In this document: positions 18,847 through 56,800 of the stretch, one piece after another | Layout: every line of letters starts with the position of its first letter | Numbering within the stretch: the stretch's first letter is position 1 | Assembly: GCA_029258795.1 (NCBI GenBank) | Contig: JAPDKB010000007.1 | Span: forward strand, 181,070-245,069 | Origin: an archaeon | GTDB lineage: Archaea > EX4484-52 > WAPT01 | Length of the DNA: 64,000 nt | Direction: 5' to 3' | Translations under genes and position numbers: made by a program | Notes under the pieces: model-generated | The model's database searches: none | What the model saw: the letters and a program-made list of their open reading frames with translations, nothing else | What the model was told of the DNA's origin: nothing

Positions 18847-18882
18847 ACACATCTCTCCTTGCTTACGGAGGAGGAGTATATC

Positions 18883-19491
18883 ATGAAAAAATGGCCGGTG
18901 TTCGTTGGAGACTTCAAGGTTGGAAACTTTGAGGGCTGGATTGCCATAGCCACGTTAAACACACCGTGGGAAGATATGCAGGAACTTCTCGGAATCGAGG
19001 GTGTGGCGATAATCGGAAGCGTGAAGACGGAAAATCTCGGTGTGGAGAAGATAGTTGCAAACGTGATAAGCAATCCAAATATAAGGGTCCTTGTTCTTTG
19101 TGGAAGAGAGTCGAAAGGTCATTATCCCGGAGATGCGCTTATATGCCTTCTCAAGAATGGTGTTGATGAAGAGGGGAGGATAATTGATGCGAGGGGTGCA
19201 ATTCCCTATCTGGAGAATTTGAGCAGGACGCATGTGGAACATTTCAGGAAGCAGATAGTTGAAATTATGGATTTGCGTGAGATTGAGGATGTGGAAATAA
19301 TAAAGAAGGAGCTGGAGAAATTGAAGGAAAAAGAGGTTCGACCTTATGAAGGTGGGGCGGTTTATGTTGAGATTGAGGAAAAGAAGGGTGGCGGGCTGCA
19401 ACATTTTGAAGGAGATGTTGTTTTCATTAATGAGGCGGCGCAGATCGACACCTCAACATTTAAAGTTGAGCTGGTAAATCAGCAGGGGTGA
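18883..19491 (+). CDS. Corrinoid protein of the MtrA family (soluble)
   Basis: Homolog of subunit A of tetrahydromethanopterin S-methyltransferase, the corrinoid-carrying subunit. KTENLGVEKIVANVISNPNIR is the family signature, and His 80 in CGRESKGHYPG corresponds to the cobalt-binding histidine of MtrA. ATG 18883 is chosen: GGAGGAG lies 8 nt upstream and WPVFVGDFKVGN is the normal start. Unlike methanogen MtrA there is no C-terminal membrane helix, so the protein is soluble. It is followed 4 nt later by mtrH. Probably a soluble pterin:corrinoid methyltransferase rather than a sodium pump. Confidence 0.88.
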   Translation: MKKWPVFVGDFKVGNFEGWIAIATLNTPWEDMQELLGIEGVAIIGSVKTENLGVEKIVANVISNPNIRVLVLCGRESKGHYPGDALICLLKNGVDEEGRIIDARGAIPYLENLSRTHVEHFRKQIVEIMDLREIEDVEIIKKELEKLKEKEVRPYEGGAVYVEIEEKKGGGLQHFEGDVVFINEAAQIDTSTFKVELVNQQG

Positions 19492-19495
19492 TTTT

Positions 19496-20383
19496 GTGTT
19501 CATCTTTCCGGAGCAGAAGAAGATAAAGATAGGGACTGTGGAGCTGGGCGGACAGCCGGGAGAGTTGCCTGCGGTGATGGTCAGCACGATGTTTTATGAG
19601 GGGCATAAAATTGTGAAAAGTGATGGTGGTTTTGACAGGGAGAAAGCTGAAGAACTCCTGAACCTCCAGCAGGAGAAGAGCGATGAAACAAAACTGCCAT
19701 ACATAACCAACGTTTATGGGAATGATGCTTCCTCCCTCATCAAGAGGGTGGAATTCGTGGCTGAAAATGACGAAAATCCCATCATGATTGATTCTCCCAG
19801 CTATTCTGCCAGAGTTGAAGCCATGAAATATGCTAAGGATTGTGGACTGATTGACAGATGCGTGTACAACTCTCTCAACATCACACTGAATAAAGATGAG
19901 AAGGATAAACTTGCTGAGCTCAGCGCGAGGAACGTGCTTGTGCTTGCTCATGCTATCAATGAGCAGAGTGTTGAGGATAAGATATCGTGCCTTGAAAAGG
20001 ATGGTGCGATGGGGAAGGGCTTGCTTGATCACGCTAAGGAGATAGGAGCAAGTAACGTGCTGATAGATACTGCGACAACACCCCTGCAGCAAGGAGCATC
20101 TCTATCCTTAACTTCTCTGGTCACCTTGAAAGCCAAATATGGCCTGCCTGTTGGATGTGGAATACACAATGCTGTGAGTTCGTGGGAATGGATAAAGAAA
20201 AGAGAAAGCTATAAAGTTGTGGATGCTGCCTCCGCACTACTGCCTGTGATCCTTGGAGCGGACTTCGTGCTCTACGGACCCATAGAGAATGCAAGATACG
20301 TTTTTGATGTTGCTGCGTTTGCTGAAATTCTGGTAGAGGAAAACGTTTCTCGTTTCACTTCCACATTCGGACTGAGCCTGTGA
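19496..20383 (+). CDS. MtrH-like pterin methyltransferase
   Basis: Homolog of subunit H of methyl-H4MPT:coenzyme M methyltransferase, the TIM-barrel subunit that moves the methyl group between the pterin and the corrinoid of MtrA. Family segments: GTVELGGQPGELPAVMVST, YITNVYGNDASSL, IDSPSYSARVEAMKYA, IDTATTPLQQGA and GCGIHNAVSSW. Length 295 residues. GTG start at 19496 preceded by GGGGTGA. Tightly linked to the soluble MtrA; the other Mtr subunits (B-G) are absent from the window. Confidence 0.9.
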   Translation: MFIFPEQKKIKIGTVELGGQPGELPAVMVSTMFYEGHKIVKSDGGFDREKAEELLNLQQEKSDETKLPYITNVYGNDASSLIKRVEFVAENDENPIMIDSPSYSARVEAMKYAKDCGLIDRCVYNSLNITLNKDEKDKLAELSARNVLVLAHAINEQSVEDKISCLEKDGAMGKGLLDHAKEIGASNVLIDTATTPLQQGASLSLTSLVTLKAKYGLPVGCGIHNAVSSWEWIKKRESYKVVDAASALLPVILGADFVLYGPIENARYVFDVAAFAEILVEENVSRFTSTFGLSL

Positions 20384-20396
20384 GGGCATGCACTTT

Positions 20397-23300
20397 TCAG
20401 TCACACCTCAAGCATCTCCCGTTAACGAGCCTCATGCCACATGATGGGCATCTTTCCTTGCTTTCTATGGCCTTCTTGAGATATGTGAGGTACTCATCTC
20501 TCGCTACGGGCTCAGTGAAATAGACCAAATCGGGTCTTCCTGCTGGCTCTGGTTGTTGCGTGGTTCTGGCCACTGTTACCGGCACATTCCCTGCCATAAG
20601 TGGAGGAGTTGCGGGGAGTGTTGGCGATTTATACGTGGTGACACCTTTCGATTTTTCTGCATGAGTTCTTGCACGTGCGAAGGGGAGCAAGGAAGGTATG
20701 CTGAGCTTGCGCTTTCCGTAGGAGTAGGTGGTGGAAGAGCTCATCCTCGTGTAGTACATCAGTCCAAACAATCCGAGCAGTCCTAAGCTCACGATAACGA
20801 TCAGCATCGTTTTCCATGGTTTGGCGGGCTTTTCTTTTGATTCAATAAGATAGCTCTCCATCTGGTTGAGGTAATTTGATGCTCTCGCTATTTTTTGCTG
20901 TGCCGCTTCATAATTTCCGCTCATGACGTCATCTCTCGCTGATGCCAAAAGGGAGGAAGCTTCATCGTACAGCTGCTGGAGTTCCTGTGGAAGCGACTCT
21001 CGATTTATGGCTGTGAGCCTTCCAGCCATGTTGTCGATGGTGTTCATGAGTGTTTCATATACATCTTCTTGTGTTTCTTCTGATGCCTCTTCACTCACGA
21101 TGTTTATTTGTGCTGTTGCTGTGGTGCTTATCTGGTCAGATGTTATGAGTACGTAGATATCGCTAGAGTAGGAGTAGAGGCACAGGCTATACTCCAGCTC
21201 TACACTTTCATTGGGAAGCAGTGTGATCGGACTGGATTCAAATGTTATGGAATGTGTGCTTGAAGTAACATCTTTCACCCGTAGATTTGTGATTATTTTC
21301 TTGCCCTTATTAGTAACACGAATCGTTCCGATTGTGCATCCACCTACCGACACGGACACAGGCGTGGCATAAACGCTCAACTTATACTCATCTTCCTTTT
21401 CTGTTGGCTGAGTAACTACTGATGACGTTCCAGCAATGGAGGTTGTTGGCTCGTAACTCTTGCCATGCGAAGGCGTCGGACAGTAGAAGGACACATATAT
21501 ATCCTTCACTTCCTGATCCGTGAGGTTGAAAGCTTCCGTCTTAAAGTCGTTACATCTGGGCTTTGTTGCTTTTATCATTACATTTGTGGCTTGTGTTGTT
21601 GAGTTCAAAAGGACAAAATTCTCAGCTCCTTCTTCAGTAATATTTATGGTTTTCACCAGCGTTCCATTGGAATATACGTAAACCATGGTTCCTGCCTGCT
21701 GTGAGCTGCTCACAAGGATGTGTAAAATAGCATAACCACTTGTCGAGTTTAGCACCAGCGTTAGATTATTACCTGCCTTTTCATTTCCGCCAGCTTTAAC
21801 CTCAATCCATCTTGGCTCAGCGGGGAAATATCCAGCTTTGTAAGCTGATAGCGCATTCATCTCAAGCGTATAGTTGCCGGGAGTCATTTCTCTGAAGAAA
21901 ACCAGCCCGCTTCCATTTGTTTCTGCACAAGTCGTCGTGTTGAGGCAGAGCTGAATGTTGCTCAACGGTGTGCCAGTCGTATTAATAACATGGATTGAGT
22001 AGCGAGTTTCATTGAAGATTGCAGTTATATTTGCTATCTTGCCATGTTCATCGAGCTCCACGGCAGTTGGAGCTGAAACCGGGATATACGCATCACTCAC
22101 AACGTAAGTGATGGTGTAATTACCAAGCGGAAGCCGTAAGAACTGAACTTTACCGTCTTGAGTCGCGTTTTCAAGCTCAAGTCCAAGCTCCGCATTCCTT
22201 ATCTTCACCTTTCCATCAAAGCTCTCGTTGAGATCGTTACTCAAATTAATTATGATAGATGTTGGTTGAAGTTCAATCGTTATTTCCTCAACCTTCCCGC
22301 TCTCCATAAAATGATGGACATGGGCTGTGCCGTAGTTTTCCTCAGTTCCATCAAACACGAAGGTGTAGTTACCCTGACCTAGAAACACAACAGCTTCGCC
22401 GTCCTCATTGCTCACCACATGACACAAGTCTGGCTGTGAGGTTCCAACAAGATAACAAGATATAGAAACGTTTGGGATTGGCATTCGTGTTATGGAATCC
22501 ACTACTTTTATCCTCATCTCTGACTCGCCGGCAGTGTAAAGATAAACGCTCTGATTTATGATCTCGTACGTTGTTGACGGAATCTTTATTGGCTGAGGAG
22601 CGTTGTATCCTGCAGTCATCACTTCCAAATAAGACACACCATAATATGGATTAAATCTACCTTCAAGGAGGTTACCTTCCTTCCAGTAAGCTGTGTAAAG
22701 AGGAGATCCTACTTCATCAGTTAGCGTGAAGTTCGCAATTCTGATCTCAACATTTATCGGATCGCCTGTTTTTGCATCGTAAAGATAGATGTAAGATTTT
22801 CCAATCGGGACCATTGGAATTATGAAGTTCTTACTCTCGCCATCTGAAAAGGTTATGAGGTGTGTTTCAGCACTTTCATTATAGTAAGTGTAAGTTTCAT
22901 AACCCTCCTTGACCACAACGAGCTTGTAGTGCTGCAGCTCAGCATTTCCCTCCACAGGTGAGCCGAGGGTGTAGGGTGATACTCTTGCATAAAAGTTTCC
23001 TGCCGTGTCAGTATGCAATACATATCTTGCCTGCTGGTCTAATGTTGGGGAAGCATCATAAAGGTAGATGGTGGCGTTGTATATGTTCTTTCTCGAATCA
23101 AGGGGATTTATAAAGTAAAGGTCATATACGTGCCCGCTTATCTCCGCAGTACCGTTCAGATATATTCGGAATGCTGGCTTTATGCCGTAACCGTCCACAA
23201 CATCATCCAGATAGCTACCTGAAAACCTGATTCCCAAATCCTTGGAATTGTAGCTCTCGTAACCTCTAGCGCGTATCAGAACATAATACCGTTTCTGCCC

Positions 23301-26300
23301 GTCGATACTCAATTTCAAGTGACCGCTTGAAGTTGTATTTCCTGCATTCATCTTGAGCCATCCAACCATGAACGCATTTTCTATTATCAACACACCGTAA
23401 CCCATGGATGTGCCATTAATCACAACATCAAACGCATCGGAGGTAACATTGAACGTTGCTTTTCCGCTTGAGTTGGTGTAATTAACATATTCATTTCCTG
23501 TAAGGTGAGATATTAGCTTTACAGTGACGTTTTCAAAAACATTATTTCCTTCTTCATCAACCACAGTTATGGTAATTATAAATCTGTCGTCACTTATGTT
23601 CATCGGTTCGAAGGGTGATGATCCCTCCACAACATCTGGATCTAGAGCCACAATTTTATGCTCTCCGGTATCGATGTCAATTAGGGTCCAATTTATGGTT
23701 CCGCTCTTGTTTACAGTTAAATTACAGTTATTGCAGGGGAGCAACCTTCTGAAAATCACCCTACCATTGCTGTCAGTTGTACCATTTACATAGTTGCCGA
23801 GAGCGTCTTTTGCAACTCTCCACTCCCCACTAACATTTTCAAACAGAGTGACCAATGCCCCACTTACGGGATCTCCTTCTGGAGTGTGTACAGTAACGTT
23901 CAGCGTCGTGATATTCAGTTTAACATTTAGCACGCCTCCCCAGACAACGTTGTAATCATCAAAATTGGCATTCCCGTATCCTTTGTCTTCTCCGATGACT
24001 GTTATATCGTATTTTGTATTGTTTTTGAGGTCCGTGAATCTCGCAATACCGGTAGTGGTGTTTTTCTCTGTCTGATAGTCCGTGCCAGTTACTATAACTG
24101 TGATGTTATCGAGAGGATTACCATTCTCGTCAGTGACATTAACTGTAAAGGTGCTGTCCACTATAGTGAAGGTGTAATTAACCTCCGTGGTGCAGTTTTT
24201 GTTTAGATCGCATATGGTTATGTTCCATCTCCAATTACCGCAACTGAATAGCATAGATGCGGTGTGATTTGTAGAAAATACATTAGAGGTCCATTTGTAT
24301 GAATTGCTGCCGTTGTAGAACACTACAGAGATATTGGTAGATTCGCTTGTAGAGATATTTATTTTGAGACTTATCGGTCCCCTTGAACATGGAGCGCCCA
24401 GTACTGTATTGTTCTCCGGCTCAACGGATGTAACGGACGGAAGCCTGTAATCAACTTTGATGTAATTGTTTCCCGAAAACACGAGAACAGTATTATTGAC
24501 ATCAGGATATCCCAATTTGGTTATAGTGAGTGTATAGAGTGTTGGTATGACGCCTGAGAATTCCACCTTACCTTCGGTGTCAGTGAGATCCGTTAGCGGT
24601 GCACCCGTTTGGTTAAAAGCAATACCGCTTTCATTCCAGAAAGTAACATTTGCATTGCTTATCTTAGTTGTGCCGTTCACAACTTCAACCAGTACATCTG
24701 TAGTGCTATTTGCAAGGATAAAGAAGACCACACTGTTGTTACAGTTGTTGGATTCATCGCACACTTTTATTTTCCATTTCCATGTACCGCAGATAAGTGC
24801 TATTTTACGTGTGTGGTTGGTGCGGAGTTCCGTATCATTGAAGTAATTTAACGGTGTGCTCTCCTGATCCTTGTAGAATTCTGAATAGAGAGTCGTGTTC
24901 TCATTTGTTGCGACCCAGTAGGTCATTTTCTCTGGAGAGTCTTGATTACAGTCAATGATTACGAAGGAATTGTTTTTGGGGTTGGTGCCCACTATCAATG
25001 GAGGGTATATATCTAAAGTCACGTTATTCTCGCCTTCACGAACGGTAATAGATTTTTCGTAGTGATGCTGTGTGGGGGAATAAACATCAACAGTGAGCTT
25101 GTAAGTGTATGGTTGAAGCATATCGAAAAGCACGCTTCCGTCTGATGATGTAAGTGATGTTAGTGGAGTCCCAGCAGTGTTCCTTGCTATAGATGAGCCG
25201 TTCCAGAGTGTGACATTTGCGTTTGCTATGGGTTTGACACCATTCGTGATTACGACTTTCAGATAGGTTCGAACGAAGTTAATCGTGTAGTTGTTCTTCT
25301 TACCCGCCATATCGGTAGTGAGCGTGTAGGTATCATATTTTATTCCACATCCCTGCGATACAGCGTCCACTTTTATTCTGTATGCGCCGACTGGTACGAA
25401 CTTGAACATGACTGATCCATTATCATTTGTTGTTGCTGTGAATCTGCACAGATTTCTTGTTGCTTGTGCTGGGGTGCATCCGTCTGTCTTGTTCATCTCC
25501 ACCAAAATTCCGCTGTGAGAACACCCGGTGGTGTTAATAGTTAGATTCAGTGTTGTTATGTTGAGGCCCTGAGTTTCGTATTCTCCCTTTTCATCAGTTC
25601 TGAAGAACAAAATTACTTCAGCGTTTGGAATAGGTTTGTTGTTATAATAATCGTAAACGAACGTCTCAAAGTAAGCTTTCAATTTTATTGAATTTTCTCC
25701 TGTAAAATTGTAGTTGGGTGGGTAAACCTTACTATAACCGTCCCATGCAAGGTATCCGTGTTGATAAGCTCTGATCTTGTACTGTGTGGTGTTGTCAACG
25801 TGAATGGTGAAGCTTCCGTCGATGTTCTTTTTCTGATATATGAGTTCACCGGTATCCGGCAGATAGAGCTCAACCGTGGCGTTGTGCAGCGGCTCTCCTG
25901 AGTATGCATCCACCAAGCTACCTTTTATGGTGCCTGCACCTCTCAGCTTATGAACTGTCCACATGTTTATGAATGCTGTACCGGTCTCGTTTTTCGTTAG
26001 ATAACCTTCTTTACTGAAATTGATGATATAATTCGAGGTAACACCCAGATAGGCATCGAAATAACCATCTCCATCCGTCATAAAGACATAGCGCAATATC
26101 GTGGTGTTACTGGAGTTTTCCTTTATTTCAATTCTAACGTTGGAGAGGGGCCGATCATTTTCTTCATCTATTACATATCCGTGAAAATGAGTGTATCCTC
26201 TCAAAACAAAGTTCTTAGTTACGGTATCTCTATCGATTATTAAATCGTAATAGGGACTGCTATTGTAACCGAGTCGAGAAGCTTGAATACGAATCATTTT

Positions 26301-29300
26301 ATCCTTAGGCACCCTTATGGAATATGCTCCGTTTTTATCTCCCACCACTACAGGATAAATTTCTTTACCGTTTATATTGAATTCAACTTTAATTTTCGGA
26401 TTTGGTATATTACAGGGATTAACATAAAGTATTCTGGAATCGCTACAAGCTTCGTCCCTAACAACTCCTTTAATAACTGATCTTCCCTCCAGAACAAGAT
26501 CCACACTCAAGAAATCGGTTCCCCTACCATCCACAGAAATGGTGGTGTGGTTGTAACCTTCCTCGGTTCCATTAGCTGTTATCTTGTATATCTCGTTGCC
26601 TTTAACATAAAGCGAGAAATTACCTCCGTAACTTGAGGTTACATCATAGCAGTATGCTAATCCTGAGGATGGGCAAAGTTTAATCGGTATCAATGGGAGA
26701 GTTATTGTGGCATTGTTTTCATCTCTATTAACGTCCAGCACTCTACCGGATATGTAGAGTGTGCCCTCTAGGTAGTATGTGCCATTGATATCCCCAACTG
26801 CATACAGTTGTAACGGTTTGTAACCACTGTCCGAACCCCCTACTATTAGTGTATAATAGTTGTTTTCACGGATGTAAGCATCCACAAAACCTTCCGAATC
26901 AGTATAGAAATTGTATGTTGCGTATTGAGGATAATTGAATCCGAAATTATCCAGTTCCTCGATTTTAACATTAATTCCTGGAACTGGTTTATTGCTGTAA
27001 AAATCCAACAATTTAATTTTAACATGAATGGCACCTCTCATGAAAAATGGTGGTAAATATCTCGTGCCGTTTTCCGATATCGTGTAACCAGAACCTTCAT
27101 TCGTAAAGTTCGCTGCAAAATAACCATCTCTCTGCGCTTCAATTACGAATCCGTGTTCATCAAGCATGTACGGAGGAACATATATTTCCCAGTCGCCGCT
27201 ATCGTTTGAAATGGTGGAGTAATTGTACCCATATTCTTCTCCCACAAAACCTCCTATGCCGTTAGGAGTCCACTTTCTGAGCGTAACATGTGCTCCGCTA
27301 ACTCCTAAATCTGTATTAAACTCATCAACAAGCCGACCCCTCATGAGATAATTTCCTTTCAAGGTTATACTACCCAAATCCTTCTCTTCGCCTTCCATAA
27401 CACAGTAACTTGTAAATGTTTCATTCCTTGTTCTGTAACCGTATCTCTCAACAACCAATCTGTAGCAGTATGGAAATCCTTCATCCACATACCCGCCTCT
27501 AACAAAAATCCAGGCAAAGCCGCTACTGTTCGTTACTGTAGTGAAGTTCGTGCTTTCAGACAGTACAAAAGTGACCGTGGCATTGTCCAGAGGCATTCCA
27601 TTCTGGTAATCCACAACTCTCATTTTGAAACTTGCGAGTCCGCGTTTGTAAACATAAAAGGTGTAATTGTTCAGTTCTGTGGAGGCGGTGAAATTCCATC
27701 TTCTCATGATGAAGTTCGTTCCCGCGTCCACCTCAAGGGTGTAATCGAACGTGCCCCTTATGCGCAAGGAGAAATATCCTTCATCATCCGTCTGAAGAAC
27801 GTACTCCACCATGCCTGTCTGGTTGTTTATTATTCTGACTGTGGCGTTGGAGATTGTCAAAAATCCGTACTCGCTAATACCTATAACTTTCCCGTTGATT
27901 GTTGTGTTTCCAAAAATCGGCACTGTGAGATTATTCGTTGTGGAAAGATTGATATTCGTCAAAACGGTCGTTATATACCCTTCCTTATCTGCGTATATGT
28001 TGTAGAGGAGAGTTTTGTCTACAAAAACGGTGGTTTTTCCGTCCGCATTGGTGGGTTGGGTTATTGATAATCCAAATGGGTATCCTGTGACAGTCACACT
28101 CACCCCACTTACAGGTTGGAGGTTCTCGCCATCAATAACAGTGATGTTTAACGGTGTTGTTGACACATCAAAGACGAGGAAACTCGAGTTGGTCCAGCCA
28201 GCTGAATCAACAGCATAGACTGTTATGTTGTGGATACCGTCATTAAAAGTTAGAGTAGTTGTTCCTCCAAAACAATTTGTGCAAAGGGTGAAGACGGTGC
28301 CATTGCTGTCTATTTCGTAAGTTATGTTGGCCGGAGTTGTGTCTGAAATTGAGATGTTTAAGTCGAGGACATTTGTGGTGTATATAGTGGTGTTTTGTGG
28401 TGAGAGGATATCAATAACGGGGGGTGTTGTGTCAACAGTTACTGTTATGGTGCTTGAGTTCACCCATCCTGCTGAATCTGTGGCATAAACCGTTATGGTG
28501 TGAGTACCATCTTGCAATGTCAAGGTTGTTGCTGCATTAGAACAGTCATTACAAAGGGTGAAAATTGTACCGTTGTTATCGATTTCGTAGGTTATGTTAG
28601 TGGATGTCAGGTCTGAGACCGAAACATTGAGCATAATGTTACTGGTGTTCACAACAGAATTATTTTGAGGAGAATTAATGTGGATTACGGGCGGGGTAGT
28701 ATCAACCGTCACCACCATAGTTCCTGTTGTGTTAAGGGTGGTGGAATTGTCCTCCACCCATATAGCAAATGTGTGAGTTCCATCACTCAGGTTGAAAGGA
28801 ATAATAAGATACTCCCATCGAGTTGTGTTTAATTTTGCAAGATAGCTTAAGGAAAATATCTTTATTATTTCATCCTCACTCAAAGTTCGATTATATATAC
28901 GGAGTTCATCCACAATACCGTTAGCAGCATCCGTGCCTGCAAGCCGTCTGCCTATCCTTAAAGGATCGTTTGAAACGTCCATAAGCCCTCTGTTAGGCGC
29001 TGTAATTACAAAGAGTTGCGGAGCATCTTCCTCCAGAATAATCAATTTGGTTGTTGTTGAGTTTCGCGAAATTGCTACGAAATACGCGTCATGAAAGAGA
29101 TTTAATGGGTACTGTATCTCCTTATCAAACTCCCCACTTACATATGTGTAGAATGTCAGATAGCCGTTCGAATCTACAAAGAGGTAATATGACCCATTTT
29201 TTTCAACGATAGTATGGTTTAAACCCGTTTCACCAACGGAAATCCATGCCATAATGGTAAGCTCATCAGTAATATGTAAACTTGGCGAATCATCAATCTC

Positions 29301-29732
29301 TATATAATCATCTACTCCATCAAACTCAACTCCTCTGAGTACTACATCAACATAGTTCGGACATGTTCCCGCCGTTGCATTACACGTACCGTTGTTTCCA
29401 TAAAGAGAAATGTCTACAAACTTACTATTATTCTCACCTATGGCGGAGATGTTGTTGAAGCCCAGATAGAGCACAAGGGAAGCATCATAGATGGAGTAAT
29501 TCGCGCCATCCAGCGTGAGATTCAGCTGCGTCATGTTCACTGCCTCAACACTTGAGTTGACCTCGAACCACGAGTGGTTCAGTATCGAGTTGTTGGAAGG
29601 AGTTGGTGGGACGAAAGTTGCAACCGGCAGCGCTAATGCTGCTTCTGCAGAGATCAACAGGAGTAATAGCAGTATCGCCGCGCCTCCTGCTCGCTTTCTA
29701 CTCATGAACTCTCTACTCTTCTTCCTCCTCAT
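20397..29732 (-). CDS. Giant 3111-residue surface protein with cytoplasmic zinc ribbon
   Basis: Signal peptide (AAILLLLLLISAEAALA) after a basic start. Residues about 110-280 form a LamG/concanavalin-like lectin domain (GVEFDGVDDYIEID, IVDELRIYNRTLS). Two Ig-like repeats follow (VDTTPPVIHINSPQNNS and relatives). Most of residues 530-2850 is a long chain of carboxypeptidase-regulatory-like/PEGA-type beta-sandwich modules. Near the C-terminus come an extracellular beta domain, a helical segment, one membrane helix (TMLIVIVSLGLLGLFGLMYY) and a cytoplasmic tail of about 110 residues ending in a zinc ribbon, CPSCG then CLRC. N-glycosylation sequons are very frequent. Starts are possible at 29732 or 29705. 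The first codons overlap the end of an HTH gene, so the two are co-translated. Probable cell-surface adhesin or receptor. Confidence 0.85.
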   Translation of the reverse strand: MRRKKSREFMSRKRAGGAAILLLLLLISAEAALALPVATFVPPTPSNNSILNHSWFEVNSSVEAVNMTQLNLTLDGANYSIYDASLVLYLGFNNISAIGENNSKFVDISLYGNNGTCNATAGTCPNYVDVVLRGVEFDGVDDYIEIDDSPSLHITDELTIMAWISVGETGLNHTIVEKNGSYYLFVDSNGYLTFYTYVSGEFDKEIQYPLNLFHDAYFVAISRNSTTTKLIILEEDAPQLFVITAPNRGLMDVSNDPLRIGRRLAGTDAANGIVDELRIYNRTLSEDEIIKIFSLSYLAKLNTTRWEYLIIPFNLSDGTHTFAIWVEDNSTTLNTTGTMVVTVDTTPPVIHINSPQNNSVVNTSNIMLNVSVSDLTSTNITYEIDNNGTIFTLCNDCSNAATTLTLQDGTHTITVYATDSAGWVNSSTITVTVDTTPPVIDILSPQNTTIYTTNVLDLNISISDTTPANITYEIDSNGTVFTLCTNCFGGTTTLTFNDGIHNITVYAVDSAGWTNSSFLVFDVSTTPLNITVIDGENLQPVSGVSVTVTGYPFGLSITQPTNADGKTTVFVDKTLLYNIYADKEGYITTVLTNINLSTTNNLTVPIFGNTTINGKVIGISEYGFLTISNATVRIINNQTGMVEYVLQTDDEGYFSLRIRGTFDYTLEVDAGTNFIMRRWNFTASTELNNYTFYVYKRGLASFKMRVVDYQNGMPLDNATVTFVLSESTNFTTVTNSSGFAWIFVRGGYVDEGFPYCYRLVVERYGYRTRNETFTSYCVMEGEEKDLGSITLKGNYLMRGRLVDEFNTDLGVSGAHVTLRKWTPNGIGGFVGEEYGYNYSTISNDSGDWEIYVPPYMLDEHGFVIEAQRDGYFAANFTNEGSGYTISENGTRYLPPFFMRGAIHVKIKLLDFYSNKPVPGINVKIEELDNFGFNYPQYATYNFYTDSEGFVDAYIRENNYYTLIVGGSDSGYKPLQLYAVGDINGTYYLEGTLYISGRVLDVNRDENNATITLPLIPIKLCPSSGLAYCYDVTSSYGGNFSLYVKGNEIYKITANGTEEGYNHTTISVDGRGTDFLSVDLVLEGRSVIKGVVRDEACSDSRILYVNPCNIPNPKIKVEFNINGKEIYPVVVGDKNGAYSIRVPKDKMIRIQASRLGYNSSPYYDLIIDRDTVTKNFVLRGYTHFHGYVIDEENDRPLSNVRIEIKENSSNTTILRYVFMTDGDGYFDAYLGVTSNYIINFSKEGYLTKNETGTAFINMWTVHKLRGAGTIKGSLVDAYSGEPLHNATVELYLPDTGELIYQKKNIDGSFTIHVDNTTQYKIRAYQHGYLAWDGYSKVYPPNYNFTGENSIKLKAYFETFVYDYYNNKPIPNAEVILFFRTDEKGEYETQGLNITTLNLTINTTGCSHSGILVEMNKTDGCTPAQATRNLCRFTATTNDNGSVMFKFVPVGAYRIKVDAVSQGCGIKYDTYTLTTDMAGKKNNYTINFVRTYLKVVITNGVKPIANANVTLWNGSSIARNTAGTPLTSLTSSDGSVLFDMLQPYTYKLTVDVYSPTQHHYEKSITVREGENNVTLDIYPPLIVGTNPKNNSFVIIDCNQDSPEKMTYWVATNENTTLYSEFYKDQESTPLNYFNDTELRTNHTRKIALICGTWKWKIKVCDESNNCNNSVVFFILANSTTDVLVEVVNGTTKISNANVTFWNESGIAFNQTGAPLTDLTDTEGKVEFSGVIPTLYTLTITKLGYPDVNNTVLVFSGNNYIKVDYRLPSVTSVEPENNTVLGAPCSRGPISLKINISTSESTNISVVFYNGSNSYKWTSNVFSTNHTASMLFSCGNWRWNITICDLNKNCTTEVNYTFTIVDSTFTVNVTDENGNPLDNITVIVTGTDYQTEKNTTTGIARFTDLKNNTKYDITVIGEDKGYGNANFDDYNVVWGGVLNVKLNITTLNVTVHTPEGDPVSGALVTLFENVSGEWRVAKDALGNYVNGTTDSNGRVIFRRLLPCNNCNLTVNKSGTINWTLIDIDTGEHKIVALDPDVVEGSSPFEPMNISDDRFIITITVVDEEGNNVFENVTVKLISHLTGNEYVNYTNSSGKATFNVTSDAFDVVINGTSMGYGVLIIENAFMVGWLKMNAGNTTSSGHLKLSIDGQKRYYVLIRARGYESYNSKDLGIRFSGSYLDDVVDGYGIKPAFRIYLNGTAEISGHVYDLYFINPLDSRKNIYNATIYLYDASPTLDQQARYVLHTDTAGNFYARVSPYTLGSPVEGNAELQHYKLVVVKEGYETYTYYNESAETHLITFSDGESKNFIIPMVPIGKSYIYLYDAKTGDPINVEIRIANFTLTDEVGSPLYTAYWKEGNLLEGRFNPYYGVSYLEVMTAGYNAPQPIKIPSTTYEIINQSVYLYTAGESEMRIKVVDSITRMPIPNVSISCYLVGTSQPDLCHVVSNEDGEAVVFLGQGNYTFVFDGTEENYGTAHVHHFMESGKVEEITIELQPTSIIINLSNDLNESFDGKVKIRNAELGLELENATQDGKVQFLRLPLGNYTITYVVSDAYIPVSAPTAVELDEHGKIANITAIFNETRYSIHVINTTGTPLSNIQLCLNTTTCAETNGSGLVFFREMTPGNYTLEMNALSAYKAGYFPAEPRWIEVKAGGNEKAGNNLTLVLNSTSGYAILHILVSSSQQAGTMVYVYSNGTLVKTINITEEGAENFVLLNSTTQATNVMIKATKPRCNDFKTEAFNLTDQEVKDIYVSFYCPTPSHGKSYEPTTSIAGTSSVVTQPTEKEDEYKLSVYATPVSVSVGGCTIGTIRVTNKGKKIITNLRVKDVTSSTHSITFESSPITLLPNESVELEYSLCLYSYSSDIYVLITSDQISTTATAQINIVSEEASEETQEDVYETLMNTIDNMAGRLTAINRESLPQELQQLYDEASSLLASARDDVMSGNYEAAQQKIARASNYLNQMESYLIESKEKPAKPWKTMLIVIVSLGLLGLFGLMYYTRMSSSTTYSYGKRKLSIPSLLPFARARTHAEKSKGVTTYKSPTLPATPPLMAGNVPVTVARTTQQPEPAGRPDLVYFTEPVARDEYLTYLKKAIESKERCPSCGMRLVNGRCLRCD

Positions 29733-29937
29733 TCACCACACCAACACCACTCACAACATGTTTCGGCAAGTAAACATGCGCTCTGCCAACCACCACCCTC
29801 TCAAGCAGTCCCTGCTGCCTCATTGCTTCCAGATACCCCGTCAAGAATTCTCTTCTAAGCTTGAGACGTTTGGCTAGTTCAGAAACAGACATGGGCTTCC
29901 TTGAGAGCTCTTCCATTATCCTCTCATGAATCTCCAT
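29713..29937 (-). CDS. Small winged-helix DNA-binding protein
   Basis: A 74-residue helix-turn-helix protein: IMEELSRKPMSVSELAKRL (helices 1-2), then RREFLTGYLEAMRQQGLL (recognition helix and next) and a short wing (ERVVVGRAHVYLP). It ends in a run of Glu. This is the pattern of small archaeal ArsR/MarR-like regulators. Its stop overlaps the first codons of the 3111-residue surface protein, so it may regulate that gene, or contact the surface protein's cytoplasmic zinc-ribbon tail; both are inference. Confidence 0.7.
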   Translation of the reverse strand: MEIHERIMEELSRKPMSVSELAKRLKLRREFLTGYLEAMRQQGLLERVVVGRAHVYLPKHVVSGVGVVNEEEEE

Positions 29938-30110
29938 CCAACATCACAAAACCGCACTTGTTCTCTTTATCTCTATACCTCAAGCACTCGAGTTAATGAG
30001 TTAAAGGACAAAAAGCCCTATATAAAGATTTCCATATTGCCGTCAATATGATGTGCAAGCTTTGCGACAAATTCGCTTATAATAAAAATTTTACCCACGA
30101 AGGTCTTATC

Positions 30111-30803
30111 ATGCTAATAATAGGCACGAACACGGAAGACGCTTGGAGAAAGGCCGTTAAAGCTGTGATGGAACACGGCAGAACCATAGTTAGTGAAGAT
30201 GGTGATGAAACTAAGGAGATAATAGGGCTTGCGGTGAGGATACTCAAACCCACCATAAGCATAGATAAAGCTCCACCCGAATACCCATTCCATGGAAAAG
30301 CTCTGCAGGATTATGTTGATCAGCTCATGACACCTGAAAACAGATGGGGCTTTGAGTACACTTATGGTGAGCGTATATGGAACTGGAACAATCAGGTCAA
30401 TCAGGTTGAAGCGATAATTGAGCGGCTTGCTAAGAGTCCTTTCAGCAGGCGTGCGGTCATTGACCTCACCATTCCCACCATGGACCACTTTCCCGAAAAG
30501 ATAAGAGATCCTCCCTGCCTCAGAGTTATCTGCTTTAACATAAGGGAGGAGAAGGAAGCGCCAATGCTGCCTGCGGTAAAGAAACTTCACACGGACGTGC
30601 TCTTCAGAAGCCACGATATATTTGGAGCAAGCTATGCGAACTGGGTGGCGCTCGCTCACCTTCAAAAACATGTTGCTGATGAAGTTGGAAGACGGAGAGG
30701 AGAGCGGATATTCATGGGAGAGCTGCACAGCTATTCCGTCTCAGCCCATATTTATGGCAGGGATTTTGAGATGGCCGATAGGGTTGCAAGGTCAACTAAT
30801 TGA
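30111..30803 (+). CDS. Thymidylate synthase, archaeal type
   Basis: Makes dTMP from dUMP. The active-site cysteine is in PPCLRV (residue 136); downstream RSHDIFGASYANWVALAHLQ and GELHSYSVSAHIYGRD are the folate/dUMP-binding and closing motifs of archaeal ThyA-like enzymes. ATG 30111 starts the conserved part (LIIGTNTEDAWRKAV). A TATA box at 30019-30026 also fits a leaderless start at ATG 30048, which would add 21 residues with CKLC; the second box near 30076-30085 fits 30111. Works with dCMP deaminase (18337) and SHMT (33891). Confidence 0.87.
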   Translation: MLIIGTNTEDAWRKAVKAVMEHGRTIVSEDGDETKEIIGLAVRILKPTISIDKAPPEYPFHGKALQDYVDQLMTPENRWGFEYTYGERIWNWNNQVNQVEAIIERLAKSPFSRRAVIDLTIPTMDHFPEKIRDPPCLRVICFNIREEKEAPMLPAVKKLHTDVLFRSHDIFGASYANWVALAHLQKHVADEVGRRRGERIFMGELHSYSVSAHIYGRDFEMADRVARSTN

Positions 30804-31987: not shown

Positions 31988-32476
31988 ATGCGCATCTCCC
32001 AGCAAATATGGCCGAGAAGCGTTGTGCTCGTGTGCAGCGTGGATGAAGATGGTAAAGCAAATGTTATGACCGCGAGCTTTGTCATGCCTGTAAGCTTTAA
32101 CCCAAAATACATAGCTGTTTCCATCTCTCCCAAACGTCACACCTTCTCCAACCTTCAGAAAGTTAGAGAGATGACCATCAACGTTTGCGATGTGAACATG
32201 AAGAAAGCTGCTGATATCTGCGGTACTTACTCGGGCAAGAATGTGGATAAGTTCGAGCTAGCAAACCTCACTGAGGAGAAATCAAGAAAGATCAGGGTAC
32301 CGTGTATAAAGGAAGCACCAATCAGTTTTGAATGTGTGGTTGAAGGTATGCATGAATACGGAGACCATTTTATCGTTGTGGGGAGGGTTGTGGAGGAGCA
32401 CGTGAGGAAAGCTGAGTTCGAGCCGCTGCTTCATGGAAGTGGGGATGATTACTTCACCGCAAGAAAGATCGACTGA
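31988..32476 (+). CDS. Flavin reductase-like protein (flavoredoxin family)
   Basis: A 162-residue FMN-binding split-barrel protein. RSVVLVCSVDEDGKANVMTASFVMPVSFNP and the ISPKRHTFSNLQ segment are the flavin-binding parts of the flavin reductase/flavoredoxin family; EFVVxxG-type ending is represented by HFIVVGRVVEEHV. Likely an FMN protein that moves electrons; partner unknown. Its 3' end overlaps the end of the convergent MetV-MetF gene by 23 nt. Confidence 0.85.
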   Translation: MRISQQIWPRSVVLVCSVDEDGKANVMTASFVMPVSFNPKYIAVSISPKRHTFSNLQKVREMTINVCDVNMKKAADICGTYSGKNVDKFELANLTEEKSRKIRVPCIKEAPISFECVVEGMHEYGDHFIVVGRVVEEHVRKAEFEPLLHGSGDDYFTARKID

Positions 32477-33488
32477 GGATTTCATCCAGCAGCTCATATT
32501 TATTGAAGCACATGAGGTGTACACCCCTGAAGTCAAGTTCTCTGCTCAATTTGATCATTTCCCTCGTTCTTTCAATTCCGGCAGCTTCGCCTTCTTTTTT
32601 TACCGCTTTGATGAGCTCTTCATCTATTCTCATACCCGGCACTCTTTTCAGCTCTTCAACCATTTCAGCCGAGATCAAGGGTAACACGCCCACGATCACC
32701 TTTCTTCTGAACTCTTCATCCAGTTTCCTGGCCAGCTCTTCGAGAACTGTAAAGCTGAACACTGCCTGTGTCTGGGCAAAATCAGCGTACCTCATCTTCT
32801 TTCTGAACTTGAGCAACTCATTCTCAAGCGGGACTGCGTTTGGGTTAAGAGCGACACCCACGCTTAGCGTGCGGAACCTCTCATTCTCGTCCTTCTTGAG
32901 CTTCCATGCAAGATAGGTTGAATCCACAAAGAAGTGTGCTTTCCTCCCTTTAGAGTAATCTCCAGTCAGCAGGAGCACGTGGTTTATGCCAGCAATTCTT
33001 GCAGCGAGCAGCTTTGAAGTTATCACTTCCATACTCTTGTTCCTGCAGACCACCTGCAGAATCGGGATGATATGTTTTTCCATGAGCCAGCATGCAACCA
33101 TAAGATTGTCAGCATGTTCTTTTCCCATCGGGTTGTCCGTCACATTTACTGCATCGATAAGGTGAGATCTTTTTTGTAACTTTTCCATCAGTTCAGCTAT
33201 TTTTTCCTTTTCACCGAACGGAGCAAGCTCGGTTGTGACTACAAAATCCTTGGAAAAAAATGATGGCTCAACTCTCGGTGGCGTGAAATCCTCAAGCTTC
33301 TGCCCTTCATGAAAAATGGAAATGATTTCGTTTTCCATGCCCGCGTTTCTCAGCTCGTTCATGATTTCAGCCCATGCACACCTGCCGCCAAGCTCACAAA
33401 TCCCATCATGGCTTCCGCCACATGGCCCATTCCACATTTGTTTCGGGCAGCGATCGTGTGCTTCTACAACCAGTTTGAAAATATTCAT
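32454..33488 (-). CDS. MetV-MetF fusion: methylene-tetrahydrofolate reductase-like protein
   Basis: From ATG 33488: the first 50 residues are a MetV/MTHFR_C zinc domain, with CPKQMWNGPCGG and GICELGGRCAW cysteines. The rest is a TIM barrel of the 5,10-methylene-H4F/H4MPT reductase type (VVTTELAPFGEKEKI, INHVLLLTGDYSKG, FRTLSVGVALNPNA, FAQTQAVFSF). In acetogens MetV and MetF are separate subunits; here they form one chain. An upstream in-frame start at 33536 adds 16 unconvincing residues. It would make methyl-pterin, the substrate of the MtrH/MtrA pair, if pterin types match. Confidence 0.85.
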   Translation of the reverse strand: MNIFKLVVEAHDRCPKQMWNGPCGGSHDGICELGGRCAWAEIMNELRNAGMENEIISIFHEGQKLEDFTPPRVEPSFFSKDFVVTTELAPFGEKEKIAELMEKLQKRSHLIDAVNVTDNPMGKEHADNLMVACWLMEKHIIPILQVVCRNKSMEVITSKLLAARIAGINHVLLLTGDYSKGRKAHFFVDSTYLAWKLKKDENERFRTLSVGVALNPNAVPLENELLKFRKKMRYADFAQTQAVFSFTVLEELARKLDEEFRRKVIVGVLPLISAEMVEELKRVPGMRIDEELIKAVKKEGEAAGIERTREMIKLSRELDFRGVHLMCFNKYELLDEILSRSFLR

Positions 33489-33613
33489 TAAAGCCACCTT
33501 CAATCCCGTTTTTCTTACCACTTTCAAGCACTTCAAGATAGATATGGATGTTAGATGTTAAAATTGTTGTGTTGTTTCGCTCTCTCAAAAAATGCCACTT
33601 CCTGTTCATCATT

Positions 33614-33834
33614 TCATCCTGACACAAACTTTTCCATATCTTTCAGGTCGAAGCACCATACTTTCCTGCTCTCAAACTCATCAATTCTTTTGCTGAAGCT
33701 CTTGGCAAAAATGGCAAAGCTTTCCTTTCTCTCATCGCTGTGCCAGTCAACGTGCTTTGATTTTTCGGCAAGTTCTTTAACAATCTTTCAGCAAATTCAA
33801 TCATTTCAAGATTCTGTGGCTCATGCGTGACTGC
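33614..33834 (-). pseudogene. Remnant of an archaeal ATPase C-terminal domain (DUF234-like)
   Basis: The 405-nt gap between the MetV-MetF and SHMT genes holds a decayed coding fragment. The main piece, KHVDWHSDERKESFAIFAKS followed by KRIDEFESRKVWCFDLKDM, ends at a TGA at 33614-33616 and looks like the C-terminal endonuclease-like domain of archaeal AAA ATPases (DUF234 type). Upstream, near 33780, the frame shifts: LEMIEFAE in one frame continues as KIVKELAEK in the next, repairable by one extra A. No ATPase domain remains. The family call is from memory of the motif pattern. Confidence 0.5.
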
Positions 33835-33890
33835 TCACCCAGCTGCATCAGAGCAACACATTTTAATTAATTACCGTCCAACACCATTCT

Positions 33891-35141
33891 GTGATGAGGA
33901 TGAACCCTGATGAAATTATTGGAGAGGTTGTACATCTTACCAGGCTCCACGATCTCTGGCGCAAATACGAGTGCATAAATTTGATAGCTTCTGAAAACAT
34001 TATGTCCCCGAAAGCAGAAGAGCTTTATATCAACGACATGATGCACCGCTATGCTGAAGGACTGCCGTTCAAGCGGTACTATCAGGGTCACAAGTATCTC
34101 GATGAAGTGGAGGTAAAAGCGCAGCAGCTCATGGCCGGGCTTTTCAATGCCGCACATGTTGATTTGCGCCCCTTAAGCGGCACGATAGCTAACCTTGCTG
34201 TCTTTGTCGCGTTTCTGGAAAACGGGAATAAGGTTGCTGCGCTTGACGTCCCTCACGGCGCTCACGTCTCTCACACGATTCATGGCGCGTTGGGATTGAG
34301 GGATGTGGAGGTGCTGCAGCTGCCGTTTGATAAGGAAAGAATGAACATAGATGTTGATAAGGCGGTAAAGCTTGTGGAGCAGGAAAAGCCAGATATGATT
34401 ATTCTGGGGGCGTCGCTATTCCTTTTCCCGCATCCAGTAAAAGAGATAAGCGATGCCGCCAAGAGTTATGGAGGGCTTGTTGTGTATGATGCCGCCCATG
34501 TACTCGGATTGATAGCGGGTAAGCAGTTCCAGCAGCCATTTGAGGAGGGAGCAGATGTGGTCACGAGCTCAACCCACAAAACCTTCCCCGGCCCGCAGGG
34601 CGGCGTGATAATGGCTGCTGAGCATGTTGATTTCGAGAGGGTGCAGAAGGCGATATTTCCAAAACTTGTGTGCAATCACCACATCCACCGGCTCCCTGCT
34701 TTGGCTCAGACCGCCTGGGAGATGTGGAGGTATGGTGAAGCTTACGCCAGACAAACAATAAAGAACGCCAAAGCGTTGGCTGAGAAGCTGTCTGAGCTGG
34801 GCTTTAAAGTGCTGGCTGAAGAGCATGGATTTACCGAAAGCCATCAGGTTGTGATAGATGTGAGGGAGTACGGTGGCGGAAAGGTTAACGCTGAGAAGCT
34901 GGAAGCAAACAACATCATAGCCAATAAAAACATGATTCCGGGAGATGAGGCAAGCAGCGAGACCATGAAGAATCCTTCCGGCATAAGGATCGGCACGCAG
35001 GAGATGACGAGATGGGGCTGCAAGGAGAAGGACATGGAGGCAATAGCGGAGTTCATACATCGTGTTGTGGTCAAGGAAGAGAATGTGAAGGATGATGTAA
35101 TGGAGTTCAGAAAGAGTTTTAGGGAGGTGCGCTACTGCTGA
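33891..35141 (+). CDS. glyA: Serine hydroxymethyltransferase
   Basis: PLP enzyme interconverting serine and glycine with transfer of a one-carbon unit to a pterin. INLIASENIMSPKAEE and HRYAEGLPFKRYYQG are the N-terminal SHMT marks; the PLP lysine is in SSTHKTFPGPQGG, about residue 230. About 416 residues, archaeal-length. GTG 33891, ATG 33894 and ATG 33900 are possible starts; a TTTTAATTAA box centred near 33866 favours the first two as leaderless starts. The stop overlaps the ATG of a DUF4346 gene (TGATG). Confidence 0.95.
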   Translation: MMRMNPDEIIGEVVHLTRLHDLWRKYECINLIASENIMSPKAEELYINDMMHRYAEGLPFKRYYQGHKYLDEVEVKAQQLMAGLFNAAHVDLRPLSGTIANLAVFVAFLENGNKVAALDVPHGAHVSHTIHGALGLRDVEVLQLPFDKERMNIDVDKAVKLVEQEKPDMIILGASLFLFPHPVKEISDAAKSYGGLVVYDAAHVLGLIAGKQFQQPFEEGADVVTSSTHKTFPGPQGGVIMAAEHVDFERVQKAIFPKLVCNHHIHRLPALAQTAWEMWRYGEAYARQTIKNAKALAEKLSELGFKVLAEEHGFTESHQVVIDVREYGGGKVNAEKLEANNIIANKNMIPGDEASSETMKNPSGIRIGTQEMTRWGCKEKDMEAIAEFIHRVVVKEENVKDDVMEFRKSFREVRYC

Positions 35142-53845: not shown

Positions 53846-56800
53846 TCATCCCGTATCTTCTCCCTCTTTTTTCCTCCTCTTTGCCAGCAGGAAGAACAGC
53901 AGAAGGGCTGCAAGCAACAGGAAGAGCAGTGCACCTCTTGTGCTCTTGAGCCATGCCAATCCCGTTATTCCAGAAGGTGGCAGTTTCTCTTTACTCAGGA
54001 GTTCCTCCACTATCGTTGAGGGTGAACTCACCACTTTAACATCAATGGTGAAGCTTGCGTAAGGCACCCCATCCCTGAACAACTTCCATCTTGTGGTAAA
54101 GGTTCCTTCCTCCTCTGGCACCACGACAAAAGAGTATGTTTCGCCATCACCAAGAGTAAAGCTATCCTCGATGCTCATCCATTCGGGGCCAGTTATACTA
54201 ATCGTGTAATTACCGCCCTCCGCAAAGCTCACCATCACCTCGTTCTCCTCCATGTAGTACAGTACGAGCTCTCCATCCTTCAGGTTGTGGATTGTGATGG
54301 AAGATGGTAAGCCTTCAACCACAAACACTTTGCTATAGAGCGTCTTCCCCTCGTGCTTTATTTCAAGCAAGTGCTGACCTGGTTCCAGCCCTACCAGAGT
54401 AAAAGTGGCAAAGCCGTTCTTATCCGTTGTGATTGTTGTGTAGATATTGCCATCTACATAAACATCCATCTCTGCATTTGGTGTGGCTTCCACATTTACC
54501 ACGTAGGGAAGCTGGATGAAATCATCAATCACAACGTTTTCCACTTCCGGAGTTTCTTCTTTAATAGTGGGTGGTGCTACATAATACGTTCCGCCTCCGC
54601 CACCTCCACCGCCTCCTGACGGCTTCTTGATAACATTTACTTCTATCCTTTCGGAGGTAAAGCTGTTGCCTGCGTTATCATAAGCCACCAGATAATAAAC
54701 TAATGTGGATGGAGTGGTGATGGTGAAGGTGCAGCTCGAGCTGTTGCAGGTTGATTTAAGCGCGTCGTTAACGTAAAGTTCTATTCTTTCCACCCCACTG
54801 AGATTATCTGTTGCGTTAGCCGAGATTGTCAGCTGCTCACCCTCCTCCGGCTCCTGTGGGCTGTGCTGAATCGCTTCGAACAGCGGAGATTCCATATCAA
54901 TCTTTATCTCCACACTCTTGATTTCCTCGACATTTCCAGCATTATCAACTGAGTAGAAGCGCACATACCACACGTTGCTTTCATTTATCAGCTGTTCCTG
55001 CTGGAAAACGTTTTCTGGATTGCAGGTGTTGATTGTGTCAACGCAAAAGTATGTTGCGTTACATCCGCTACTGTCATCAGTACAGGTGAGATTGAAGCTC
55101 ACGCTTGTTGTGTACCATCCATTGTTGCCGTTCGGAGCTGGTGGATTTAGCGTAATGGTTGTTGTAGGAGGTGTTGTGTCCTCTCCTTCTGACTCTCTAA
55201 CGGTGAAGCTTCCCTCGGGGGTGGTGAAAGTGTTGCCAGCTTTGTCGTAGATCTTGGCGTAGTAGGTTATGGTTGTGCCTGCAGAATAAGGTCCGCTAGT
55301 ATAACTGCAATCCGCAACATCATCACATGTCTTCTCCAGCGTTCCATTCACATAGATCTCTATTTTCTCTATTCCAGACCCCTCATCGGAAGCCTGAGCA
55401 GTAAAGCTGACCTCGTCAACATCCGTTGGGTTTTGTGGAGAATGTGTTATGCTGCCCGAAGGTATTGCCTTGTCGATATAGAATGGGTTACTTTCCTTTA
55501 TGCTTTCTGTGTTGCCTGCAACATCAACACTGTAATAACAAACCTTCTTGATGCAGACGTTTCCTGTTGAACATGTTACTGTTCCGCTCTGTCCAGAAGT
55601 ATAGCCGGTTGTTCCGCATTCAGCTGTATTATCCACAACCTTGTAATAAGTATTCTGGCATCCGCTTTTGTCGTCATTGCATGTAAGGGTGAAGCTAACA
55701 TTCTGATTGGTCCAGTCGTGGCCGTTTGGAGAGATGGTTGTGGTGGGAGGTGTTGTGTCCTCTCCTTCTGACTCTCTAACGGTGAAGCTTCCCTCGGGGG
55801 TGGTGAAAGTGTTGCCAGCTTTGTCGTAGATCTTGGCGTAGTAGGTTATGGTTGTGCCTGCTGGAAAGCTTCCTGCATTGTAGGAGCATGAAGTTGTGGA
55901 GGTGCATGTGGTTGCGAGATTACCATCAACATAAATCTCGATTTTGTCTATGCCCGAGCCATCATCGCTGGCTGTTGTGGAAATGGTCACAGCATCCTCA
56001 TCTGTTGGGTTCTGGGGGGAGTGAGTCACACTTCCGGTTGGCGCTTTCTTGTCGATGTAAAATGGGTTGCTCTCCTTAACGCTTTCCTTGTTTCCTTCGT
56101 TATCAACGGAGTAGAAGCAAACCTTCTTGATGCAAACACTTCCGTCAGCACACGTTACCGTGCCGCTCTGTCCACTAGTATATCCACTTGATGGACACGT
56201 CTGGTCGTTGTTGATAATAGTGTAGTATGTGGCGCTACACCCCGAATAATCGTCAACACAAGTGAGGGTAAAGCCCACATCTTCATTCGTCCAGCTGTGT
56301 CCGTTTGGAGAGATGGTTGTGGTGGGAGGAGTGGTGTCAGTAACAACGATATTCACCACCACCGTGTCTTTTCCTTCCAGACCCTTATCATCAGCAACAA
56401 CCAGTTCTATCGTGTAGCTTCCCTCCTCGCTGAATGTGAGCTGTATGCTCTGTGCTGTCGAATCAGCAACACCATCACCGTCCGTGTCCCAGCGATAGGT
56501 TATCGGATCTCCGTCCGGATCGTAGCTTGGTGAGCCATCAAAGGTGAGGGTTGTTCCCGGCTCAACCGTTACGCTGTTTACATCCTCTCCGTTGGTGAGG
56601 ATAATGGCTACGGGGGCTGTGTTTTTTGGCTTCTCAAGCACAGTAACCTTCCAGCTTGCTGAGACGGATGATTTACCGTCTGTGACCTTAACCTCGATGG
56701 TGTAAAGGCCGGCTGAGCTTCCCTCAAACAGGAAGGATGATGTGGCTGTGCTTGAGAGTGTCTCGCGCTTGGATTCCGCTCCATCAACCCTCCAGATGAA

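Follow-up and report, generated by a model that had tools for sequence, protein, structure and literature searches.

A small gene for a putative DNA-binding protein that runs into the gene of a giant surface protein raises the question of whether the product of the first gene controls the second and, if so, by what route. The arrangement occurs in a 64,000-nucleotide stretch of DNA (hereafter, the window) from a 1.17 Mb archaeal assembly of 23 contigs. The first gene of the operon (29713..29937, minus strand) encodes a 74-aa winged-helix (wHTH) protein and the second (20397..29732, minus strand) a protein of 3111 aa. As originally predicted, the giant starts within the last codons of the 74-aa ORF: in the ORF list of the window, its ATG (29732) is 20 nt inside the wHTH gene. 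This inner ATG is supported by a GGTGTG word 4-5 nt 5' of it that is kept in both same-genus genomes, where the giants likewise begin within the wHTH gene; a second in-frame ATG at 29705, past the wHTH stop, is a possible alternative start in the window genome. Because the two ORFs overlap, their translation is probably coupled.

The 74-aa protein, which was characterized using Pfam, AlphaFold, Foldseek and family alignments, matches PF01022 (HTH_5/ArsR) with 25.6 bits against a cut-off of 22, and its AlphaFold model (pLDDT 79) consists of three helices and a wing. The nearest solved folds are those of the ArsR-type regulators SmtB and CzrA, and the best sequence match is 2oqg. The score with the NCBIfam metalloregulator family NF033788 is far below the cut-off (28 bits compared with 55), and the protein contains no cysteine, no ligand domain and no transmembrane (TM) segment within its 74 aa. 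The recognition-helix residues RR..L.GYLE are invariant across the families aligned, with overall identity of 81-84% within the genus and 44-55% to most other families. Sequence identities indicate that evolution has been slower in the wHTH core than in the giant: the window and genome G001 share 92% in the core and 45% in the giant, and the respective values for G012 and G033 are 95% and 41%. A viral or mobile origin of the wHTH protein was rejected, no relative having been found in viral contigs.

This conservation bears on the reading in which the giant is controlled by translation of the wHTH ORF as a leader peptide and not by the protein made from it, for example, through exposure of a ribosome site. 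Such a role would accord with the overlaps seen at many loci (4 to 32 nt) and with the ribosome-binding words within the end of the ORF, but is highly improbable given that the amino acid sequence is conserved, with invariant helix residues, that gaps of 5-117 nt separate the genes at some loci, and that the region of the transcript start folds no better than shuffled sequence. Neither the overlap nor the leader has an Rfam match to a structured RNA or riboswitch, and with the folding result this candidate was rejected.

The giant had been described as a single-pass surface protein with a C-terminal CPSCG/CLRC tail, and the ORF, the Pfam matches and the hydropathy profile agree with this description. 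The protein has one hydrophobic segment at the N-terminus, which is either a signal peptide or an anchor, a LamG (concanavalin A-like) domain at residues 138-289 (28866..29321, minus strand; Pfam PF13385, 57 bits), many CarboxypepD_reg (14 passing stretches, 229 bits) and Ig-like repeats, a Big_13 match and 129 N-glycosylation sequons. A C-terminal TM helix at residues about 2975-2993 (20754..20810, minus strand), seen both in hydropathy and as a helix in the structure model, is followed by a tail of ~115 residues that ends in CPSCGMRLVNGRCLRCD. Profile and alignments delineate in this tail a module, VYFTEPVARxEYL..CPSCGMRLVNGRCLRCD (20400..20531, minus strand), with a predicted cytoplasmic helix and a zinc-ribbon-like CxxC/CxxC motif; in the structure model, the juxtamembrane helices are confident, the linker is disordered and the ribbon is moderately confident. 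The giant is most likely an adhesin or a surface-coat protein that mediates contact with a partner cell. The window encodes another large surface protein (53846-58744, minus strand; 1632 aa) with PKD/Ig domains and a C-terminal TM helix, which is preceded by a 746-aa protein without a convincing domain match (58748-60988, minus strand); there is no member of the 74-aa wHTH family in front of this locus. The genes around the giant (18859-20383, plus strand, and 32454-35141) include homologs of MtrA and MtrH, a methylenetetrahydrofolate-reductase-like gene and SHMT, a group of C1 (tetrahydromethanopterin/folate) enzymes that is unexpected in a small DPANN genome.

Whether the gene pair is more than a local coincidence can be gleaned from its distribution. 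Separate searches of 60 relatives with the wHTH protein and with the giant yielded matches on the same contigs. The broader sample consisted of 34 genomes of the window's phylum and 156 genomes of a second DPANN phylum, whose named members are Aenigmatarchaeota; the same-genus relatives carry the database name 'DPANN group archaeon' and the other members of the phylum are mostly listed under Nanohal(o)archaeota, 'archaeon' or Aenigmatarchaeota, the named relatives all being metagenome assemblies. Within the window's phylum, the wHTH protein is encoded in 15 of the 34 genomes and directly precedes a giant secreted membrane protein, homologous to that in the window, in all 14 of those with downstream sequence; 11 of these giants are complete (2638-3351 aa), three run off the contig at 1323-1489 aa, and at the junctions the two genes either overlap by 4 to 20 nt or are 9 nt apart. 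The second phylum has 30 copies in 27 of the 156 genomes, and 29 of these lead into a surface-protein operon, 26 directly (one of these as a wHTH-surface protein fusion) and three via a gene for a MinD/ParA-like ATPase, which in one case (L146) is itself fused to the wHTH domain. The exception is a weak family member in G085 that leads to non-surface genes. A DNA-pattern scan of 85,000 genomes detected 23 loci, none of them outside these archaea, and the gene order is the same wherever the downstream sequence is long enough to show it. The order, the overlap and both proteins thus recur in other genera, other families and a second phylum, so that, by sequence comparison, the pair is not an accident of chance; its conservation beside homologs, on which the original prediction had staked itself, holds in both phyla.

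Outside the two phyla, no strong member of the wHTH family was found among the 394 sampled archaeal genomes, the matches with E-values about 1e-9 being mostly domains of larger proteins. The closest outside match (G428, E-value 1e-12) is located upstream of a type I restriction methylase; this more distant 70-aa wHTH protein of the same type (L181) hints that archaea possess a broader class of wHTH proteins encoded at the head of operons. A literature search found no description of a wHTH-led surface operon in DPANN or of this wHTH family.

Within these operons, the wHTH protein is the constant partner, and the surface partner is highly variable, belonging to several families. Among the giants scanned, LamG was found in the window's genus only, CarboxypepD_reg arrays are present in most of the window's phylum, and the partners in the second phylum contain Ig-like or other repeats or are proteins of ~750-830 aa associated with MinD. 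Operons of the latter type (L143, L144, L147, L152 and L153), which combine the wHTH protein, a surface protein of that size and MinD/ParA-like ATPases, suggest a surface apparatus that is served by a positioning ATPase of its own. The cytoplasmic ribbon is still more restricted. The profile matched 12 genomes, 11 of them clearly, all from the family of the window or from a single related one; each giant of the window's genus has one copy of the module, whereas it is doubled in genus g9 and present on separate contigs in genus g11, and it is confined to these giants. It is missing from the wHTH-giant pairs of a third family in the same taxonomic order and from those of the second phylum, save for one marginal match in G026. 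The ribbon as a universal part of the system is thereby ruled out. Because the module is found in two families only, it is, as far as this comparison reaches, not needed for the pairing of the wHTH protein with a surface protein, and its restriction to a few lineages marks it as a lineage-specific addition.

The proposal that the wHTH protein and the surface protein form one signalling unit, with the tail holding or releasing the wHTH protein depending on events outside the cell, has to be weighed against these observations. The overlapping, probably translation-coupled genes in a fixed order and the restriction of the tail module to these giants would be compatible with such a unit. So would a locus in G111 (L142:1883-4318, plus strand), where a single 812-aa in-frame ORF, followed by a MinD-like gene, combines the wHTH domain, a TM segment, an ectodomain of beta domains and a second TM segment, the topology of membrane transcription regulators (class: PMC10269533). 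This fusion is, however, a single metagenome-assembled case that could be natural or could reflect an assembly indel between overlapping genes; furthermore, most of the wHTH-led surface proteins lack the ribbon, and several lack a C-terminal TM helix and hence a cytoplasmic tail. The signalling unit is accordingly a doubtful proposition, and the relay of one-step signalling through the inside ribbon, which had been suggested for this locus, finds no comparative support. Equally doubtful is an elaboration in which the two proteins constitute a split transmembrane switch, the giant sensing a partner cell and altering the activity of the wHTH protein at a single operator, which in turn would set the number of giants; the G111 fusion would then be the one-chain version of a DPANN-specific system.

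If, instead, the wHTH protein regulates its own operon, a binding site could be expected upstream of 29937, as had been anticipated, and a candidate was indeed found there. It is the inverted repeat TATTG-ACGG-CAATA (TATTGACGGCAATA; 30035..30048, minus strand), which is conserved in the genus and surrounded by the palindrome ATATTGACGGCAATAT (30034-30049, minus strand), conserved in the same-genus genomes. The repeat touches a predicted BRE, GGAAATC (30027-30033, minus strand), and lies eight bases before a predicted TATA box, TTTATATA (30019-30026, minus strand), both of these elements being assigned by consensus match only and conserved in the same-genus alignment; upstream alignments within genera reveal conserved blocks directly before the TATA box, and an inverted repeat of this type is common to these blocks. 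A thymidylate-synthase-like gene that is kept in the two same-genus genomes diverges from the other side of the site (30048-30803, plus strand), so that the candidate operator might affect both genes.

Across 28 genus-level representatives, the pattern TATWG-N3/4-CWATA was present upstream of the wHTH gene in 13 genera, compared with a mean of 0.23 (maximum 2 of 28) in 200 dinucleotide shuffles, figures that are optimistic because the repeat was first spotted by eye in part of the tested sequences. Two tests are independent of that choice: the pattern occurs in only one of 337 control regions, taken from upstream of other genes at these loci, and spacings of 2, 5, 6, 7 and 8 occur in 0, 0, 1, 0 and 1 genera, respectively, so that only 3 and 4 are enriched. 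A match is lacking in half of the genera; in a 14th genus (g9), the repeat is present in another member (L071) and absent from the representative. The site precedes the TATA box by 8 bp in the genus of the window and by 6 bp in three others; elsewhere it is found at other distances before the box or beyond it, with a site that overlaps the box or lies past it in L112, L122, L123 and L127. Tandem sites about 11-12 bp apart in g11, g40, g79 and g133 suggest dimers side by side on one helix face. A related word, TACAATATRG, occurs in five of the 23 loci that were taken to represent the second phylum (expected, 0.06; five was reached in none of 1000 shuffles); its role as a general promoter word is ruled out by genome-wide counts close to those of the reversed control.

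The distribution of the site also bears on the view that the wHTH protein is a general small DNA-binding protein with distant targets that precedes the giant only by virtue of an ancestral operon. Descent can preserve gene order, and archaea commonly encode wHTH domains of this class; yet the wHTH gene stays first while the partners and other neighbours change, and within the window's genus the candidate operator occurs at no other promoter, which makes this view unlikely. TATWG-N3/4-CWATA has a single match in the 64-kb window, namely, the candidate operator, and the extended palindrome, with 0-1 mismatch, occurs once in each of the three genomes of the genus, solely upstream of this operon. 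In most of the genomes tested, the degenerate pattern is found genome-wide at about the control frequency, so that no large regulon is seen, which argues for a dedicated rather than a global regulator. Two genomes of the second phylum, G062 and G114, contain more sites than the control pattern, and in such genomes the regulon may extend beyond a single operon.

The preferred reading, to which we assign a probability of about 0.7, is that the wHTH protein is an operon-dedicated regulator that putatively binds TATWG-N3/4-CWATA in the promoter of its own gene and, in doing so, controls expression of the surface protein. Because the wHTH gene and a shared candidate site lead surface-protein operons across two phyla, a dedicated on/off regulator is probable. 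Under this mechanism, the wHTH protein would be made first and would bind the inverted repeat, presumably as a dimer; once bound, it would determine how much of the surface protein is made from the following gene, whose translation is probably coupled to that of the first. In the window, the protein would act as an activator, since the candidate site directly adjoins the BRE on its upstream side, and the usual site of archaeal activators is just upstream of this element (PMC5512572). In other genera, sites overlapping or downstream of the TATA box, where a repressor would be expected, make autorepression, or both modes, possible, so that the sign of regulation may differ by lineage or dose. 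Two observations run against this scheme: the wHTH protein lacks the C-terminal dimerisation helix of the ArsR proteins, and the edge of the family reaches non-surface genes (G085 and the more distant L181). With the conserved pair and the candidate site, a co-transcribed, overlapping regulator of a self-regulating surface or adhesion operon, one part of the original prediction, gains support from the sequence comparisons. A wHTH family with a readable candidate operator in two phyla offers a handle on how DPANN symbionts control host-contact proteins: in each genome it points to a principal surface-protein operon, and in vitro tests of the regulator do not depend on cultivating the organism.

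Several known systems resemble parts of this one. The wHTH protein shares the fold and HTH_5 membership with ArsR/SmtB regulators but lacks cysteine and the dimerisation helix and scores below the metalloregulator cut-off. The giant, in turn, resembles the SPEARE proteins, giant surface proteins of Nanohaloarchaeota with a proposed role in host contact (PMC6642349, PMC10266531), in being a giant DPANN surface protein with LamG, a C-terminal TM helix and a cytoplasmic end. It differs in lacking the VirB4/type III restriction-helicase-like domain, of which its ~115-aa tail yields no Pfam match, in having a small zinc-ribbon-like tail instead, and in being paired with a wHTH gene, none being mentioned for SPEARE in the passages of those reports that were consulted. 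The ToxR/CadC transmembrane transcription regulators (class: PMC10269533) are matched by the G111 fusion, which joins a wHTH domain, a TM segment and an ectodomain in one chain, whereas the window and nearly all other loci encode a separate soluble wHTH protein. A parallel in the mode of action is EarA, the archaellum regulator of Methanococcus and Pyrococcus, which recognizes the words TACATA and A(C/G)(C/G)TACA(T/C) immediately upstream of the BRE/TATA and is required for transcription of the archaellum operon (PMC5512572, PMC10665913). Unlike EarA, which forms its own transcription unit where examined and controls the archaellum operon, the wHTH gene is the first cistron, overlaps the next gene, precedes giant adhesin-like or other surface proteins, and has a TATWG-N3/4-CWATA inverted repeat as its candidate site; an NCBIfam scan of the wHTH protein named no archaellum regulator. 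Like EarA, the wHTH protein would be an archaeal regulator dedicated to one surface-structure operon, and in four genera, including that of the window, the candidate site lies 6-8 bp before the TATA box, a position like that of the EarA site. The best explanation appears to be that the wHTH protein is an autoregulator that works like EarA, the proposed likeness being one of mode of action.
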